Assembly: GCF_028687615.1 (NCBI RefSeq)
Contig: NZ_JAQTZU010000005.1
Span: forward strand, 1 to 64,000
Length of the DNA: 64,000 nucleotides
Reading direction: 5' to 3'
Source of the DNA: Methylovulum sp.
Lineage (GTDB): Bacteria; Pseudomonadota; Gammaproteobacteria; Methylococcales; Methylomonadaceae
Shown here: positions 33,566 through 41,190 of the stretch, one piece after another
Numbering within the stretch: the first letter of the stretch is position 1
Layout: every line of letters starts with the position of its first letter
The notes under the pieces: generated by a model
What the model was told of the DNA's origin: nothing
Databases searched by the model: none
The model's input: only the letters and a program-made list of their open reading frames with translations
Translations under genes and position numbers: made by a program

Positions 33566-34153
33566 TTGCATCCGCTATTCTTGTATTACCTGCGCTCCTC
33601 TCAGGTTACGAAAATAAACTTTATAAAATTGCCTTGGGTTTTAGTGGGCTTTTGTTGCCTGCTATTTTCGCAACCGCTTTATGCAGATGCCGTTGAATAT
33701 AAAATTAAAGCGGGGTATCTTTATAATTTCACTAAATTTATCACCTGGCCCGAAGATAAATCGGCAAGCTTTAATCTGTGCATTTTGGGGGATGACCCGT
33801 TTGGCGCATTGATCGAACCCATTGAGCAGCGCACGGCCTTTGGCAAACCGATTAAACTGTTCAGGCTTGATAATATCAACACACTGCTCCGCATCAGCAA
33901 AACAACCCTTTGCCATATTCTCTTCGTCAGTTCGTCTATCCCCATCCCGCCATCAATCCATAAAGACAAAAACATTTTGATGGTCGGCGAAAGTGAAAAT
34001 TTTGCCCGCAATGGCGGCATGGTCGGCTTTATCACCGAGGACAGCCGGATAAAATTACAAATCAACCGAAAAGCATTTCAAGAAAGTGAACTAAAAGTCA
34101 GTGCGAAATTAATGGAAGTTTCCGAACTAATTGATGGTGATAGCCATGATTGA
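33566..34153 (+). CDS. yfiR: YfiR-family periplasmic regulator
   Basis: 195 aa. Signal peptide (WVLVGFCCLLFSQPLYADA), then a YfiR/DUF4154 domain: YKIKAGYLYNFTKFITWPE, FNLCILGDDPFG, CHILFVSSS, NGGMVGFITEDSRIKLQIN. In the YfiBNR system YfiR is a periplasmic inhibitor of the diguanylate cyclase YfiN, sensitive to redox and envelope stress. There is no ATG near the expected N-terminus; TTG at 33566 is the most likely start. The gene overlaps the diguanylate cyclase gene by 8 bp, as expected for partners. Confidence 0.85.
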   Translation: MHPLFLYYLRSSQVTKINFIKLPWVLVGFCCLLFSQPLYADAVEYKIKAGYLYNFTKFITWPEDKSASFNLCILGDDPFGALIEPIEQRTAFGKPIKLFRLDNINTLLRISKTTLCHILFVSSSIPIPPSIHKDKNILMVGESENFARNGGMVGFITEDSRIKLQINRKAFQESELKVSAKLMEVSELIDGDSHD

Positions 34154-36551
34154 CAAAATCCGCCGTCTTTCCATTCGTGGCAAACTGTTGTCGACGATCT
34201 TGTTTCCCAGCCTAATTTCTTTGTTATTTGCGGGCATCGTTTTGATTGCGCTGGAAACGGTCGAATTTAAAAAAGTTGTCGAGAACGACCTGACCACACT
34301 GGCGACCGTGATAGGCAACCGTAGCACCGCCGCACTGATGTTCGGCGACCCTGATTTAGCCAAGGAGAATTTGGCGGCGCTAAATATCCAGCCGGCAGTG
34401 CAAGCGGCCTGTGTCTACAATAAACCAGGCCAGCTTTTCGCGCAGTTCCTAAAAGCCCCCCTAAACGCCGTCTGGATCTGTCCGCCTAACATTGCCGGAC
34501 AGTCCAGCCATTTTGAAAACAATCTGTTTTGGGTCGTGGTACCCATTGTTGATAAAGGGGAGCATGAGGGTTCCATCCTCGTACACGCCGATTTTTCCGA
34601 CGCTTACGGACGCAAGATACAGTTCACCCTGATGGTGTTTTTGGTGATTGCCGCTTGTTCAATCATCGCTTTCTTTTTAACGGCACCGTTTATTAAACTG
34701 ATCGCCTTGCCGGTAAAAAAACTGGTGGCAACGGTTAAGGCCATTTCTGATACCAAAGATTTTTCATTACGCGCCGAAAAACATTATAACGACGAACTAG
34801 GCGTCTTGGTCGATGCCTTCAATGGCTTGATAGAGCGCGTGGAAAACCAAAACCGGGCATTGACTCGTGCCAAAGACCGCTATCTGGCCTTGTACGATGA
34901 CAACCCAACGATGATTTTTAACCTGGGCGAAACCGGACTGATTATGTCAGCCAACCTGACAGGGGCAAATCACTTAGGCTTAAGCGTCAATGCCCTGGAA
35001 GATTGCTCGATCTTGGATTTTGTACATCCTGCCGATTTGGCGTTGATGAGCGAATTAATCGTGGAATGCCTTGCCAGCCCATCGACTGTCCACAAGCAGG
35101 AGCTGCGGCAAGTCTGCGATAACGGCCGCATTATTTGGGTCAGGGCCACCGCCCGGATGGCCGGTTATGATGGGCAACAAAACAATTTGTTGCTGGTCTG
35201 TGAGGATGTCACGGAGACCCACAAGCTCAGCCAACAAATTGCCTATCAAGCCAGCCATGATGCCTTGACCGGCCTGGCTAACCGCAGTGAATTTGATAAA
35301 GCGGTAAAAAACGCCATTGCCCTGGCGAATACCGACAATTCTGAACACGCCTTGTGTTATCTGGATTTGGACCAGTTTAAAATCGTCAATGACACCTCCG
35401 GGCATTTGGCCGGCGATGAATTGCTCCGGCAATTGGGCGATTTGCTGAAAAAACATTTGCGCCGCAATGATTTCATCGCCCGTCTAGGAGGGGACGAATT
35501 TGGTGTGCTGATGTATCACTGCACACTCGATGAAGCGGTTGTCGCCAGTGAAAAAATACGCGATGCCATCAGGGATTTTCATTTTGCCTGGGAAGGACGG
35601 CGTTTTTCAGTCGGCGTCAGTATCGGGATTGCCTCCATTAAGGACACTAGCGGCAATGCCGTCAACCTGCTCAAAGAAGCCGATGCCGCCTGCTATGCCG
35701 CCAAAGACAAAGGCCGCAACCGCGTCCATGTGTTTCGGCCTGATGATGAAGAACTGGCAATTCGGCATGGTGAAATGCAATGGGTGCAAAAAATCCAGCA
35801 AGGTTTGGAACAGGATTTATTTTGTTTGTATGGACAACCCATAGCAGGCATAGCCAAACCAGATGAAAAACTGCATTTTGAAACCCTGGTGCGTTATAAA
35901 GAGGCCAAAGGCACCATCATCCCGCCAGGCGCTTTTTTGCCGGCCGCCGAGCGTTACAATCTGGCTCCGGCGATGGATAGATGGGTGATAAAGAATCTGT
36001 TTGCATGGATCGCCGAAACCCCTAACTTTCTTGAACAGCTCGAACTCTGTTCAATCAATCTATCAGGTTTGTCGCTCTCTGATGATGACCTGTTCAATTT
36101 TATCCTTGAGCAGTTTACGTTTTGGAATATTCCTACCCAGAAAATCTGTTTCGAGATTACCGAAACCGCCGCGATTGGCAATCTGACCAGCGCCACCCGT
36201 TTTATTCATAAACTCAGGGACAAGGGCTGTTCGTTTTCGCTGGATGATTTTGGCAGTGGCTTGTCGTCGTTTGCCTATTTAAAAAACCTGCCAGTGGATT
36301 TTTTAAAGATTGATGGCTTGTTCGTCAAAGATATTCTCGATGATAAAATCGACCTTGCTATGGTTAAGGCCATTAATGAAGTCGGGCAAATGATGGGCAA
36401 AAAAACCATTGCCGAATTTGTAGAAAACGAAAAAATATTTAACTTGCTTAAAGAGTTAGGCGTGGATTACGCTCAAGGCTACGGTATTGGCAAACCCGTG
36501 CCCTTGCAGGATCTCAAGTTGATAATACCTTTTAAACGTGACACGCAATGA
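34146..36551 (+). CDS. YfiN-like sensor with PAS, GGDEF and EAL domains
   Basis: 801 aa. Two membrane helices (about 20-40 and 160-185) bracket a periplasmic domain like that of YfiN/DgcN (GNRSTAALMFGDPDLAKENL). HAMP, PAS (ALYDDNPTMIFNLGETGLIM), GGDEF and EAL domains follow. The cyclase motif is intact (LGGDEFGVL, about 448). In EAL the motif reads FETLVRY (Glu present, Ala to Thr) with LDDFGSGLSSFAYL and IDGLFV kept, so phosphodiesterase activity is possible. It would make or break cyclic di-GMP under control of YfiR. The start is the ATG at 34146, overlapping the yfiR stop; the stop overlaps the TonB receptor start (ATGA). Confidence 0.87.
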   Translation: MIDKIRRLSIRGKLLSTILFPSLISLLFAGIVLIALETVEFKKVVENDLTTLATVIGNRSTAALMFGDPDLAKENLAALNIQPAVQAACVYNKPGQLFAQFLKAPLNAVWICPPNIAGQSSHFENNLFWVVVPIVDKGEHEGSILVHADFSDAYGRKIQFTLMVFLVIAACSIIAFFLTAPFIKLIALPVKKLVATVKAISDTKDFSLRAEKHYNDELGVLVDAFNGLIERVENQNRALTRAKDRYLALYDDNPTMIFNLGETGLIMSANLTGANHLGLSVNALEDCSILDFVHPADLALMSELIVECLASPSTVHKQELRQVCDNGRIIWVRATARMAGYDGQQNNLLLVCEDVTETHKLSQQIAYQASHDALTGLANRSEFDKAVKNAIALANTDNSEHALCYLDLDQFKIVNDTSGHLAGDELLRQLGDLLKKHLRRNDFIARLGGDEFGVLMYHCTLDEAVVASEKIRDAIRDFHFAWEGRRFSVGVSIGIASIKDTSGNAVNLLKEADAACYAAKDKGRNRVHVFRPDDEELAIRHGEMQWVQKIQQGLEQDLFCLYGQPIAGIAKPDEKLHFETLVRYKEAKGTIIPPGAFLPAAERYNLAPAMDRWVIKNLFAWIAETPNFLEQLELCSINLSGLSLSDDDLFNFILEQFTFWNIPTQKICFEITETAAIGNLTSATRFIHKLRDKGCSFSLDDFGSGLSSFAYLKNLPVDFLKIDGLFVKDILDDKIDLAMVKAINEVGQMMGKKTIAEFVENEKIFNLLKELGVDYAQGYGIGKPVPLQDLKLIIPFKRDTQ

Positions 36552-38683
36552 ATATCAAAGCCATAACGTCTGTTAGCTTTCTACTTTTTACTTTCTGCCC
36601 TGGCAAGGTCTTGGCTGAAGCCGAAGTGGAAATGGAAGATTATTTTGCGATGTCACCTGCTGAACTCGCCAATATCCCGGTCACCATAGCCACCGGCACC
36701 CCAAAACCCGTGTTCCAGTCCGCCGCCATCACCAGTGTCATCACCGCTGACCAGATCAAATCTATGGGCGCGACCGAGCTGCATGAAGTCCTGGAAACTG
36801 TTCCTGGTGTTCATGCCAGTATTAAAGAAGGGGATTATGACTATAGTTACAGTATGCGGGGCATTAGCAATAACGCCAATTCACAAGTTCTGATTTTGCT
36901 AAACGGCACCCGCATTACCACGCCTTTTGGTGGCACATTGATGACGGGCACAGAAATGCCATTGGAAGCTATCCAGCGCGTAGAGGTGATCCGTGGCCCT
37001 GGTTCCGCATTATACGGTGCCGATGCTTTTGCTGGCGTCATTAATATAATCACTAAAAAAGCGGGTGACATTAATGGTACCCGGGCAGGTGTGCGTGCCG
37101 GCAACTGGGATACCCAAAGCACTTGGGGGCAGCATAGCACCGAACTGGCAGGCTGGAATATTGGCACTAGCCTGCAATATCAACATACCCAAGGTGATGA
37201 CGGGCGTGTTATGGATGCCGACGCCCAAACAGCATTCGACAATGCACTTCAAACTCATGCCTCACATGCACCAGGGGCTTTAAACTCACGCTATGAAACC
37301 TTGAACGGGCATCTTAACTTACAGCGCAAGCACTGGAATATTGGCTTCTGGGGGTTTAATTCAATGGATGCCGGGACACGTGCAGGTATTGCTGGCGCCT
37401 TAGACCCTAAGGGCATCGCTAACGGCGAACAATATTTAGGTGATGTGCGGTTTTCCACAGAAGATTGGCTGGATGATTGGGAATTGACCGCCCACGCAAG
37501 TTATCTACGCACTAATTTTCTCGCGCAACTGCAACTATTTCCTGATAAAACCAGATTACCTATAGGCCCTGATGGCAATATCAATACTTCGGATTTTTCA
37601 TTGATAAACTTTCCTGATGGTGTGAATGCCAATGTCGGACGTTTAGAAAAAATCCCCTCCTTTGAATTAACGTCAATTTTCCGTGGTTTAAATCAGCATG
37701 TCGTGCGCTTGAACACGGGGTTTCGCCATGAAGCAATTTCAACTACGGAAAGTATAAATATAGGCACGGGGGTGATAACGGACAATACCCAAACCGTAGT
37801 AAACGGGCAGCTAACCAACCTTACCGGAACGCCTTTTGTCTACTTGGCTGATACCAATCGCTCAATTTGGTCATTAGTCGCCCAAGATGAATGGCAAATC
37901 GCCAAAAACTGGCAACTGGCTTCAGGTGTGCGTTATGACAATTATTCTGATTTTGGCGGCACATTAAATCCGCGTTTGGCTCTGGTTTGGGATATTAATA
38001 AGCGGTTAACCGGAAAACTGTTATATGGCAGGGCGTTCAGGGCGCCCAATTTTTCAGAACAAGGCACACAAAACAATCCTGTCGTACTGGGCAATAAATA
38101 CCTGAAACCTGAAACCATCAACACCACTGAGCTGGCCTTTGATTATCGTCCCTTATTGTCACTGCATACGACACTAAACATATATTATTATGAGATTAGC
38201 AACCTTATATCCACTGTGCCAATGACCGATGGCTTAAGCCAATATCAAAACAACGGCAATCAAAACGGTTATGGTTCTGAATTTGAGTGGGACTGGCAAT
38301 GGGGCCAACAGTGGAATATAAAAGGCAATTATGCTTGGCAGAATGCAACCAACGCGGCAACCGATAAGCGGATATCAGGCGTACCGGAACACCATATTTA
38401 TGTCGCTTTAGGCTGGCATTTTTCGCCTCAATGGAACATACAACCCCAACTTAACTGGATAGGAGGAAGGACTCGCGCATTAGGCGACCAACGCCAGCTA
38501 GACGATTATGAGACCGTTGATCTCACACTGCGCGGTAAAAAATTATTTAAACATTTAAATCTTGCCGCTTCTTTACGAAATGCTTTTGATGGGCATCCTC
38601 TTGAACCTGCGGCTTTGCAATTACCACAAAATTTGCCTTTGGCTGGCAGAAGTTTTTATTTTGAAGCCTCCATCGATTTTTGA
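36548..38683 (+). CDS. TonB-dependent outer-membrane receptor
   Basis: 711 aa. Signal peptide, then MEDYFAMSPAELANIPVTIATG, the plug start typical of the BtuB/FepA-like group. The plug domain (about 60-170) has VPGVHASIKEGDYDYSYSMRGI and VEVIRGPGSALYGADAFAGVINII, and a 22-strand-type barrel ends in an aromatic C-terminus (SFYFEASIDF). The ligand is unknown; no siderophore, cobalamin or metal genes flank it. It is the last gene of the yfiR / cyclase / receptor operon, joined by ATGA, so it takes the place of the lipoprotein YfiB as the outer-membrane component. Confidence 0.92.
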   Translation: MNIKAITSVSFLLFTFCPGKVLAEAEVEMEDYFAMSPAELANIPVTIATGTPKPVFQSAAITSVITADQIKSMGATELHEVLETVPGVHASIKEGDYDYSYSMRGISNNANSQVLILLNGTRITTPFGGTLMTGTEMPLEAIQRVEVIRGPGSALYGADAFAGVINIITKKAGDINGTRAGVRAGNWDTQSTWGQHSTELAGWNIGTSLQYQHTQGDDGRVMDADAQTAFDNALQTHASHAPGALNSRYETLNGHLNLQRKHWNIGFWGFNSMDAGTRAGIAGALDPKGIANGEQYLGDVRFSTEDWLDDWELTAHASYLRTNFLAQLQLFPDKTRLPIGPDGNINTSDFSLINFPDGVNANVGRLEKIPSFELTSIFRGLNQHVVRLNTGFRHEAISTTESINIGTGVITDNTQTVVNGQLTNLTGTPFVYLADTNRSIWSLVAQDEWQIAKNWQLASGVRYDNYSDFGGTLNPRLALVWDINKRLTGKLLYGRAFRAPNFSEQGTQNNPVVLGNKYLKPETINTTELAFDYRPLLSLHTTLNIYYYEISNLISTVPMTDGLSQYQNNGNQNGYGSEFEWDWQWGQQWNIKGNYAWQNATNAATDKRISGVPEHHIYVALGWHFSPQWNIQPQLNWIGGRTRALGDQRQLDDYETVDLTLRGKKLFKHLNLAASLRNAFDGHPLEPAALQLPQNLPLAGRSFYFEASIDF

Positions 38684-38700
38684 CCCCACGACTTGATTAA

Positions 38701-39420
38701 TTAATAATTTCCTTTTTCAGTCAACATACCCCATAACTGCTGGTTTTCATTCGCTATGTTCTCAACTAACTCCTCGATTTTAATGATACACGGCCATCTC
38801 TCCCCGTGATAATCCAGCAACGGGCCTATTTTTATAAAATGAACCCCCGCCGATGACAAAAAACGGAACCACGCAGGTTCCAACGTTCCAAAAAGATATT
38901 CAATATTATGTTCATAACAACTTTTTATTAAGCAGGTTATCAACGCAAAACTCATATGAGGAAGCGCCCGACGTTCTAGCAAAGAGAAATACTCCCGGTT
39001 TTCACAAACACCTTCGTTTATTGCCACCAAGGTGTTTGATTCATTCTTTCTTCTTTTAAACGCTTTGGATATGCAAAATCGGGACGCTTCTGCCAAGTTA
39101 GCCCGGTTAATTTGTTGCATCAGAGCGGTATTGTCGATTTCACAATTGACTTCAATTGGAAATAACTCTTCTGGGAACGTAACATTAGGCAAGACAAGCC
39201 GGGTAGTGGCGGCATAGTCCCCAGAGCTCCGATGGCGGATTAAATAATGCACGGAGTGTTGGTCAAATTCATCATATTCCATCTTGTCAGGATAATCATC
39301 AGGACTAAAAACGCCCATTTCGAAACAATAAACTTGATAACGGAGCTTATATACTTCATTTTTAAGCTCTTTTGAAATGGCAGGGACCATTTCAAAATAC
39401 TGATTAAAAGCGTCAATCAT
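38701..39420 (-). CDS. LuxI/FeeM-like acyltransferase (PEP-CTERM/exosortase-associated type)
   Basis: 239 aa, GNAT-like fold of the autoinducer-synthase group. Conserved Arg and acidic residues sit as in LuxI and N-acyl amino-acid synthases: KLRYQVYCFE, DKMEYDEFDQHSVHYLIRH, and AATTRLVLPN. The closest named family from memory is the PEP-CTERM/exosortase system-associated acyltransferase (TIGR03694). No PEP-CTERM protein or exosortase is encoded nearby. Start: ATG at 39418-39420 with TTAGG upstream. It follows the heme-oxygenase-like gene after 7 bp. Predicted activity: acyl transfer to an amino-acid or related amine; the product is not known. Confidence 0.75.
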   Translation of the reverse strand: MIDAFNQYFEMVPAISKELKNEVYKLRYQVYCFEMGVFSPDDYPDKMEYDEFDQHSVHYLIRHRSSGDYAATTRLVLPNVTFPEELFPIEVNCEIDNTALMQQINRANLAEASRFCISKAFKRRKNESNTLVAINEGVCENREYFSLLERRALPHMSFALITCLIKSCYEHNIEYLFGTLEPAWFRFLSSAGVHFIKIGPLLDYHGERWPCIIKIEELVENIANENQQLWGMLTEKGNY

Positions 39421-39427
39421 ACTAAAC

Positions 39428-40060
39428 CTAATGGCTATTAAAATCAGTAAAAACACTTATCCAGGAACCACACATCATCTTTCCCCCTTCGAGACAAGCA
39501 ACCGGGTTATTATCAAAATAGCGTGAGCATAAGTCGATAATTTCTTCACCATGTATCAGATCAGCTTCTAAATGAATGGCAACCCAGCGTTTTTGTTTTT
39601 TATTTAACCCTAAGCGTTCAAAAAAAACGTTACCTTCCATCTGTAAATGTTTGGCTATATTTTCAAAAACATAAACTGCGCCTAAGTAAGGATAGATGTT
39701 GTCACCTAAATTAAACCATCTGGCATGAAAGTTTTTAACTGATTGGGGTATTGCTTCAGAAACATCATCCCCTAACTCCCTTAGATCTTCCCTGGCTAAA
39801 ATATAATGTGCCTGTTCCTCACTAACCATGTGGTTAAAATATTTCTTTAACTCTTCGTTATGGGCAATATTGCCCGCATGTCTTATCATCTCACCGCTTC
39901 TGGCCGTGTAATGATACATGGTGTTTAAAAACTGTTTGTATTGCTCCAAATCGAAACCATTAGCTCCTAAAAACGGCTTAAAGGTATTTGCCGCTTTTTC
40001 AGCAAGCACTTCAAGCTCTTGGATAGCGTACACTTCATCAGATATTGAGGGATTTTTCAT
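39428..40060 (-). CDS. Heme-oxygenase-like fold enzyme, candidate diiron oxidase
   Basis: 210 aa, all-helical, of the TenA/heme-oxygenase-like superfamily. Metal-ligand type residues recur: GEMIRHAGNIAH, VSEEQAHYILARE, and HLEADLIHGEEI. The E..H and HLEAD..H pattern matches heme-oxygenase-like diiron oxidases and oxygenases rather than a heme oxygenase or TenA thiaminase, whose signature Cys is not seen. It is first in a two-gene operon with the LuxI/FeeM-like acyltransferase, so it may modify the acyl chain or amino acid. The ligand assignment needs a structural model. Confidence 0.7.
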   Translation of the reverse strand: MKNPSISDEVYAIQELEVLAEKAANTFKPFLGANGFDLEQYKQFLNTMYHYTARSGEMIRHAGNIAHNEELKKYFNHMVSEEQAHYILAREDLRELGDDVSEAIPQSVKNFHARWFNLGDNIYPYLGAVYVFENIAKHLQMEGNVFFERLGLNKKQKRWVAIHLEADLIHGEEIIDLCSRYFDNNPVACLEGGKMMCGSWISVFTDFNSH

Positions 40061-40404: not shown

Positions 40405-41190
40405 ATGTCACTCCCTAAAGGCTATTTAGATACCGAAGCCCTCGATATTTTTGCCAAACTGCTCAATAACATCAAACAGCGTAGCTACGATGCCATGTCC
40501 ATTAAAAAAGGCCATAAGGTATTAGACTTGGGCTGTGGCCCAGGTACTGACACCGTCCCTCTAGGGTTATTGGTCGGCAACCAGGGCCAAGTCATCGGTG
40601 TGGATTACGATTTGGCGATGCTGGCCGAAGCCAATCAACGCGCGGAGCAAGCGGGTGTAAGCGCGTGGGTCAAGCATCAGCAAACCGATGCCGCATCCCT
40701 GCCTTTTGATAGCAATTATTTCGATGCCTGCCGCAGTGACCGGCTCTTTCAACATTTGCCTAATCCGGTACAATCCTTGTCAGAAATGGTCAGGGCAACA
40801 AAATCCGCTGGCAGGGTAGTTATCGTGGATACTGACTGGGGATCCTTATCCATTGATACTGACGAAATTGACATTGAGCGGCGATATGCACGGTTTGTCG
40901 CCTGTTCCGCCTTGCATAACGGTTATTCAGGACGCACATTATGCCGGCTCTTCAAACAACAAAACTTAACGGATATTAGCTTTGAAGTTTTTCCGGTTGC
41001 AGTTACCCGAAGCATGTTGATCCGCCAGGCAACACAAGCGGACAGGACGGAACAAGATGCCGTTGCCGCCGGAGTCCTCTCTACTGAAGAGGTGCAACGC
41101 TGGCGTGGCAGCCAAGCACAGGCGGATGCCGAAGGCGTGTATTTTGCCAGTGTCAATATTTTCCTAGTTACTGGCCGCAAACCCGAATGA
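40405..41190 (+). CDS. SAM-dependent methyltransferase, class I
   Basis: 261 aa. SAM-binding motif I is VLDLGCGPGTDTVPL, followed by VIGVDYDLAMLAEA (acidic ribose ligand) and the aromatic or hydrophobic motif region FDACRSDRLFQHLPNP. The family is UbiE/COQ5-like small-molecule methyltransferases. The substrate is unknown. RBS AAGGA precedes the ATG. It is divergent from the heme-oxygenase-like operon, so a shared pathway is possible but unproven. A MITE lies 61 bp downstream. Confidence 0.85.
   Translation: MSLPKGYLDTEALDIFAKLLNNIKQRSYDAMSIKKGHKVLDLGCGPGTDTVPLGLLVGNQGQVIGVDYDLAMLAEANQRAEQAGVSAWVKHQQTDAASLPFDSNYFDACRSDRLFQHLPNPVQSLSEMVRATKSAGRVVIVDTDWGSLSIDTDEIDIERRYARFVACSALHNGYSGRTLCRLFKQQNLTDISFEVFPVAVTRSMLIRQATQADRTEQDAVAAGVLSTEEVQRWRGSQAQADAEGVYFASVNIFLVTGRKPE

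Follow-up and report, generated by a model that had tools for sequence, protein, structure and literature searches.

Heme-oxygenase-like (HO-like) dimetal oxidases (HDOs) act mostly on fatty or amino acids (PMC13108848), and about 85% of the HDO groups analysed in PMC11363339 are reported to carry the motif E-H-X-H-D-H or E-H-X-H-E-H. Acyltransferases of the TIGR03694 type that are linked to exosortases have been named N-acyl amino acid synthases (PMC7293339; PMC11072679; each with reference to Craig 2011), and NasP is cited in PMC7293339 as a cAMP-activated synthase. In the methanotroph Methylomonas LW13, a mutant in an exosortase-linked synthase gene lost its polysaccharide band and gradient growth (PMC11072679). 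An O2-using partner for such a synthase would be of direct interest because the methanotroph enzyme is tied to this band and to growth in oxygen gradients. Elsewhere, an O2-dependent desaturase acts on N-acyl tyrosine, and in the thalassotalic, kyonggic and stieleriacine clusters a nitroreductase-family gene similar to that desaturase sits with the synthase gene (PMC12479983).

To place a locus of Methylovulum sp. among these systems, we analysed a stretch of 64,000 nucleotides (contig NZ_JAQTZU010000005.1, positions 1 to 64,000), referred to here as the window, in which an HO-like gene and a LuxI/FeeM-like acyltransferase gene are neighbours. Whereas the N-acyl dehydrotyrosine clusters (thalassotalic acids, kyonggic acids, stieleriacines, tyrazolones) combine a nitroreductase-family oxidising enzyme with a ThiF-like cyclase, the window pair has a PF14518 oxidase instead and no adjoining ThiF-like gene. 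Both kinds of enzyme are already known; the module that joins a candidate HDO with a candidate N-acyl amino acid synthase is a new combination of them. No description of the pairing was found in the literature searched, which left most subscription journals outside it, so its absence is unproven; nor was an acyltransferase context for an HDO found in the passages searched of PMC11363339 (2024) and PMC13108848 (2026). With only two genes, a unit of this kind lends itself to testing and could bring to light an HDO reaction and a class of lipid that are both new.

Gene organization

Two genes 7 bp apart had been proposed in the initial annotation, and both open reading frames and the gap between them are present as described (Table 1). 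They lie side by side on the minus strand, the oxidase gene as the upstream partner and the acyltransferase gene downstream, with a GTG at 39456 as an alternative, overlapping start of the latter. The acyltransferase gene and a TonB-dependent receptor gene, which ends at 38683, face each other with their 3' ends, and on the opposite flank the pair is divergent from a methyltransferase gene (40405-41190). Purifying selection acts on both genes: between the window and Methylovulum miyakonense, dN and dS are 0.13 and 1.33 for the oxidase and 0.095 and 0.56 for the acyltransferase. A promoter scan returned about as many matches as in shuffled sequence. Adjoining the pair at 33566-38683 (plus strand) is a series of YfiR/HmsC-like, CHASE8-GGDEF-EAL and TonB-dependent receptor genes, and the same row also adjoins the pair in M. 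miyakonense.

Table 1. Features of the oxidase-acyltransferase locus in window coordinates
Feature	Coordinates	Strand	Evidence
HO-like dimetal oxidase (HDO) candidate, first gene of pair, 210 aa	39428..40060	-	ORF; PF14518; model; folds
E82 codon, predicted metal ligand (preceding E81 is the alternative)	39815..39817	-	E in 107/110 HO-like rows
H85 codon, predicted metal ligand	39806..39808	-	H in 106/110 HO-like rows; CADD H88
E133 codon, predicted metal ligand	39662..39664	-	E in 102/110 HO-like rows; CADD E142
H163 codon, predicted metal ligand	39572..39574	-	H in 109/110 HO-like rows; CADD H174
D167 codon, predicted metal ligand	39560..39562	-	D in 102/110 HO-like rows; CADD D178
H170 codon, predicted metal ligand	39551..39553	-	H in 109/110 HO-like rows; CADD H181
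7-bp intergenic gap, GTTTAGT	39421..39427	-	oxidase TAG stop to acyltransferase ATG (39420)
LuxI/FeeM-like long-chain N-acyltransferase, 239 aa	38701..39420	-	TIGR03694, PF13444, PF21926 FeeM; E111-x-S-R
E111 codon, candidate catalytic Glu of E-x-S-R	39088..39090	-	invariant in 25/25 relatives

Oxidase fold and metal ligands

The oxidase belongs to PF14518, which it matched at 44.5 bits, above the curated cut-off of 28.9. An AlphaFold2 model, built from an alignment of four sequences only, had a pLDDT of 84.6 and the seven helices of the heme-oxygenase bundle. Its nearest solved folds (Foldseek, VIA-align 2) were 3dde (Z 20.7) and CADD (1rcw; Z 19.9), the latter superposing over 199 residues at 2.5 A rmsd, and TenA, HrmI, UndA (Z 16.8) and BesC followed close behind; identity to the matched structures was about 9-17%. 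Such Z values alone cannot tell an HDO from TenA, and it is the metal ligands that can. In the profile alignment five oxidase residues fall on the CADD residues given in Table 1, and E81/E82 lie beside the CADD glutamate pair 81/82, CADD numbers being counted along the printed alignment. We take CADD residues 81/82, H88, E142, H174, D178 and H181 to be its metal ligands. By this alignment the oxidase has the full set of three histidines and three carboxylates on core helices and conforms to the E-H-X-H-D-H motif. The metal-ligand pattern of HO-like diiron oxidases that had been noticed at this locus is supported by the fold together with a complete ligand set, whose convergence is indicated indirectly by its alignment with CADD. 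The protein shares with known HDOs the seven-helix fold, the PF14518 match and an E-H-E-H-D-H ligand set, and differs from them by its acyltransferase partner.

The proximity of TenA and CADD to the best fold match does allow a reading in which the oxidase is a TenA-like or CADD-like protein (p-aminobenzoate synthase), functionally unrelated to its neighbour and there by accident. We consider this improbable. TenA does not need the metal ligand set that is complete here; CADD K152, which with Tyr27 we presume to be self-sacrificed by the CADD p-aminobenzoate synthase, falls on G143 of the oxidase, and the part around Tyr27 is gapped in the alignment. Adjacency in four genomes with differing flanks, together with recurrence in remote genomes (see below), also speaks against an accidental neighbour.

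Acyltransferase family and genomic setting

The acyltransferase (ACYLTRANSFERASE) matched the NCBIfam family TIGR03694 (exosort_acyl, PEP-CTERM/exosortase-associated acyltransferase) over positions 2-238 of 241 with 235.9 bits against a cut-off of 111.95, and PF13444 with 59 bits against 22. The match to PF21926 (FeeM) was just above cut-off at 27.4 bits, and that to the Pfam LuxI autoinducer synthase family PF00765 just missed it (23.1 bits, cut-off 24). The protein also matched structures of AHL synthases, and the E111-x-S-R stretch aligned with WEWSR of a solved autoinducer synthase; the predicted model was poor (pLDDT 43.7). These family and structure matches agree with the earlier description of the protein as an autoinducer-synthase-like acyltransferase, and we regard it as a candidate N-acyl amino acid synthase. 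It shares with the exosortase-linked synthases the full-length TIGR03694 match (236 bits) and the E-x-S-R motif, but differs in having no exosortase or PEP-CTERM gene nearby and in having an oxidase partner.

The window genome encodes one exosortase (contig C51) and gave five PEP-CTERM matches (contigs C6, C20, C43, C51 and C56); contig C15, the one with the window and the pair, had neither. The initial annotation had noted no exosortase or PEP-CTERM gene near the pair, and the distribution over contigs agrees with it. A TIGR03694 gene above cut-off was present in 58 of the 101 relatives, and 12 of these 58 had no exosortase match (two scans joined by hand), near-complete, single-contig assemblies among them; the family is therefore not bound to exosortase.

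The AHL synthase structure matches and the weak autoinducer-synthase match in Pfam would fit a pair that forms an AHL-type quorum-sensing module, a reading that we rejected as highly improbable. The LuxI cut-off was missed while that of TIGR03694 was far exceeded, and the LuxR autoinducer-binding domain PF03472 had no match in the window genome, which is 99.96% complete; a LuxR-type quorum signal is unlikely because the genome lacks this ligand-binding domain. Of the modified N-acyl signal or lipid suggested at the outset, the lipid stands as the likeliest product, and a quorum signal is not supported.

Conservation of the gene pair

The oxidase family was searched in 101 relatives, in a class sample (369 genomes) and a phylum sample (398 genomes), and by a contig pattern scan with two narrow peptide patterns that yielded only the three close relatives. 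In the genomes searched, the tight oxidase family is confined to the window genome, M. miyakonense, a Methylovulum MAG and Methylocucumis oryzae. In all four, a TIGR03694 gene in the same orientation comes straight after the oxidase gene, at distances of 7, 7, 43 and 14 bp, so that the adjacency first seen in the window is kept in 3/3 of the close methanotroph relatives found. The outer neighbours are common to the window and M. miyakonense and different in the other two, giving three neighbourhoods. In a tree of TIGR03694 proteins the four paired genes and one without an oxidase (L041) form a five-row group (support 93/91), and other close TIGR03694 relatives also have no oxidase neighbour. 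Relatives within the genus such as L041 indicate that the acyltransferase also occurs alone. The acyltransferase of Methylocucumis oryzae (L050 6627-7313) ends in a short, divergent C-terminus and is possibly damaged. In many genomes of the window's order, a PF14518 domain forms part of a long frame that runs to about 600-870 residues.

Remote members of the oxidase family were found with oxidase profiles, and the best matches were then inspected; the remote pairs consequently give no frequency. They come from other families and classes, and those that were aligned share about 20-25% identity with the window oxidase. Among these best matches, and apart from operons of the T_hemolysin/AMP-ligase/SDR type, HO-like genes adjoin FeeM- or GNAT-type acyltransferase genes in seven genomes. 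The acyltransferase gene comes first in two of them, G214, where all acyltransferase matches are below cut-off, and G522 (FeeM, 103.5 bits); in most of the acyltransferase-linked pairs the oxidase gene leads. The acyltransferases of G592 and G718 match PF13444 above cut-off, and those of G850, G899 and G1049 carry a C-terminal cyclic-nucleotide-binding (cNMP) domain (60-74 bits). The full ligand set is present in 10 of the 11 acyltransferase-linked oxidases, the exception being that of G214, where Ala replaces D167. The three cNMP-domain acyltransferases, when loosely aligned, show Thr or Ser in place of E111, so acyltransferases of this type may not all share one mechanism. At L193, L194 and L197 a GNAT/FeeM-type acyltransferase fused to a cyclic-nucleotide-binding domain adjoins an HO-like gene.

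As it is kept in all three close relatives found and recurs in seven remote genomes, the adjacency is not a matter of chance. This recurrence in distant bacteria suggests a small undescribed pathway to oxidised fatty-acyl amino-acid lipids. More tentatively, and somewhat against the odds in our judgement, modules of oxidase and N-acyl amino acid synthase may be a general undescribed route through which Pseudomonadota form oxidised N-acyl amino acid lipids with O2, in some cases with cyclic-nucleotide gating by a binding domain of the synthase itself.

Proposed function of the pair

Our preferred reading, to which we give a probability of roughly one half, is that the pair is a two-gene lipid-tailoring module in which the oxidase modifies the amino-acid part of an N-acyl amino acid. 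From the family assignments and described analogues we infer a substrate, a product and an order of steps as follows. Like FeeM and Nas enzymes, the acyltransferase would attach a long fatty acyl chain, with acyl-ACP as the probable donor, to the amino group of an amino acid. The oxidase would bind two iron ions (or Fe/Mn) through E82, H85, E133, H163, D167 and H170, activate O2 and oxidise the amino-acid part of the N-acyl product by desaturation, oxidative decarboxylation to an enamide, or hydroxylation. The end product may be a modified N-acyl amino acid or a head group for the cell surface. That acylation would precede oxidation is indicated indirectly, by analogy. The single analogy of the LW13 mutant in the exosortase-linked synthase suggests that the pair could have a role in a surface polymer.

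The order of steps may also be the reverse, and this is the serious rival, although we hold it to be clearly the less probable: the oxidase would start from a free amino acid or amine and modify it by N-oxygenation, C-C cleavage or desaturation, and acylation would follow. The product might then be, for instance, a hydroxamate or an unusual amino acid in acylated form. The fold matches include the N-oxygenase HrmI, several characterised HDOs act on amino acids (PMC13108848), and the oxidase gene leads in pairs of the window type. The last point is countered by G214 and G522, where the acyltransferase gene comes first, and because of these two remote pairs gene order says nothing firm about step order.

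Alternatively, the oxidase could act in the manner of UndA on a fatty acid or acyl chain, with the acyltransferase drawing on that acyl pool or competing for it. The fold comparison matched UndA as well, and other oxidase relatives adjoin AMP-ligase/SDR or ketoacyl-synthase-III-like genes; against this, no fatty-acid gene adjoins the window pair and the sequence indicates no fatty-acid pocket, and we consider the reading unlikely. Modification of the amino-acid part after acylation remains our preference.

Other genomic contexts of oxidase relatives

A general rule that HO-like genes adjoin acyltransferase genes is not supported: at about 19 class-level PF14518 loci, where short same-strand neighbours were judged by eye, none was acyltransferase-like. 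No acyltransferase neighbour was seen at the oxidase match in G221, and a search of the order of G214, represented by a single genome, added nothing. The neighbour at L064 (G047) appeared GNAT-like by eye, had no Pfam match and was dropped.

At L202, L203 and L205, which are lower-scoring matches, an HO-like gene directly follows a gene judged by eye to be 3-ketoacyl-synthase-III-like. Oxidase relatives at L053, L054, L117, L118, L121 and L130, and in part at L057-L060, share an operon with genes for an AMP-ligase and an SDR; this operon also includes a T_hemolysin (PF12261) gene wherever the retrieved sequence extends far enough. This T_hemolysin/AMP-ligase/HO-like/SDR operon has a relative of the window oxidase, but its gene set is otherwise different. 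As a possible hidden relative of the acyltransferases, T_hemolysin was compared with them by profile, at probabilities of 10.7 and 1.3.

A plasmid search with the oxidase returned one match, a 27% relative without a directly adjoining acyltransferase gene, at 113282-113932 of Vibrio cyclitrophicus plasmid NZ_CP135178.1 (L188), which is typed as conjugative. Methyltransferase and transporter genes surround it, and a GNAT-annotated gene lies about 4 kb away.
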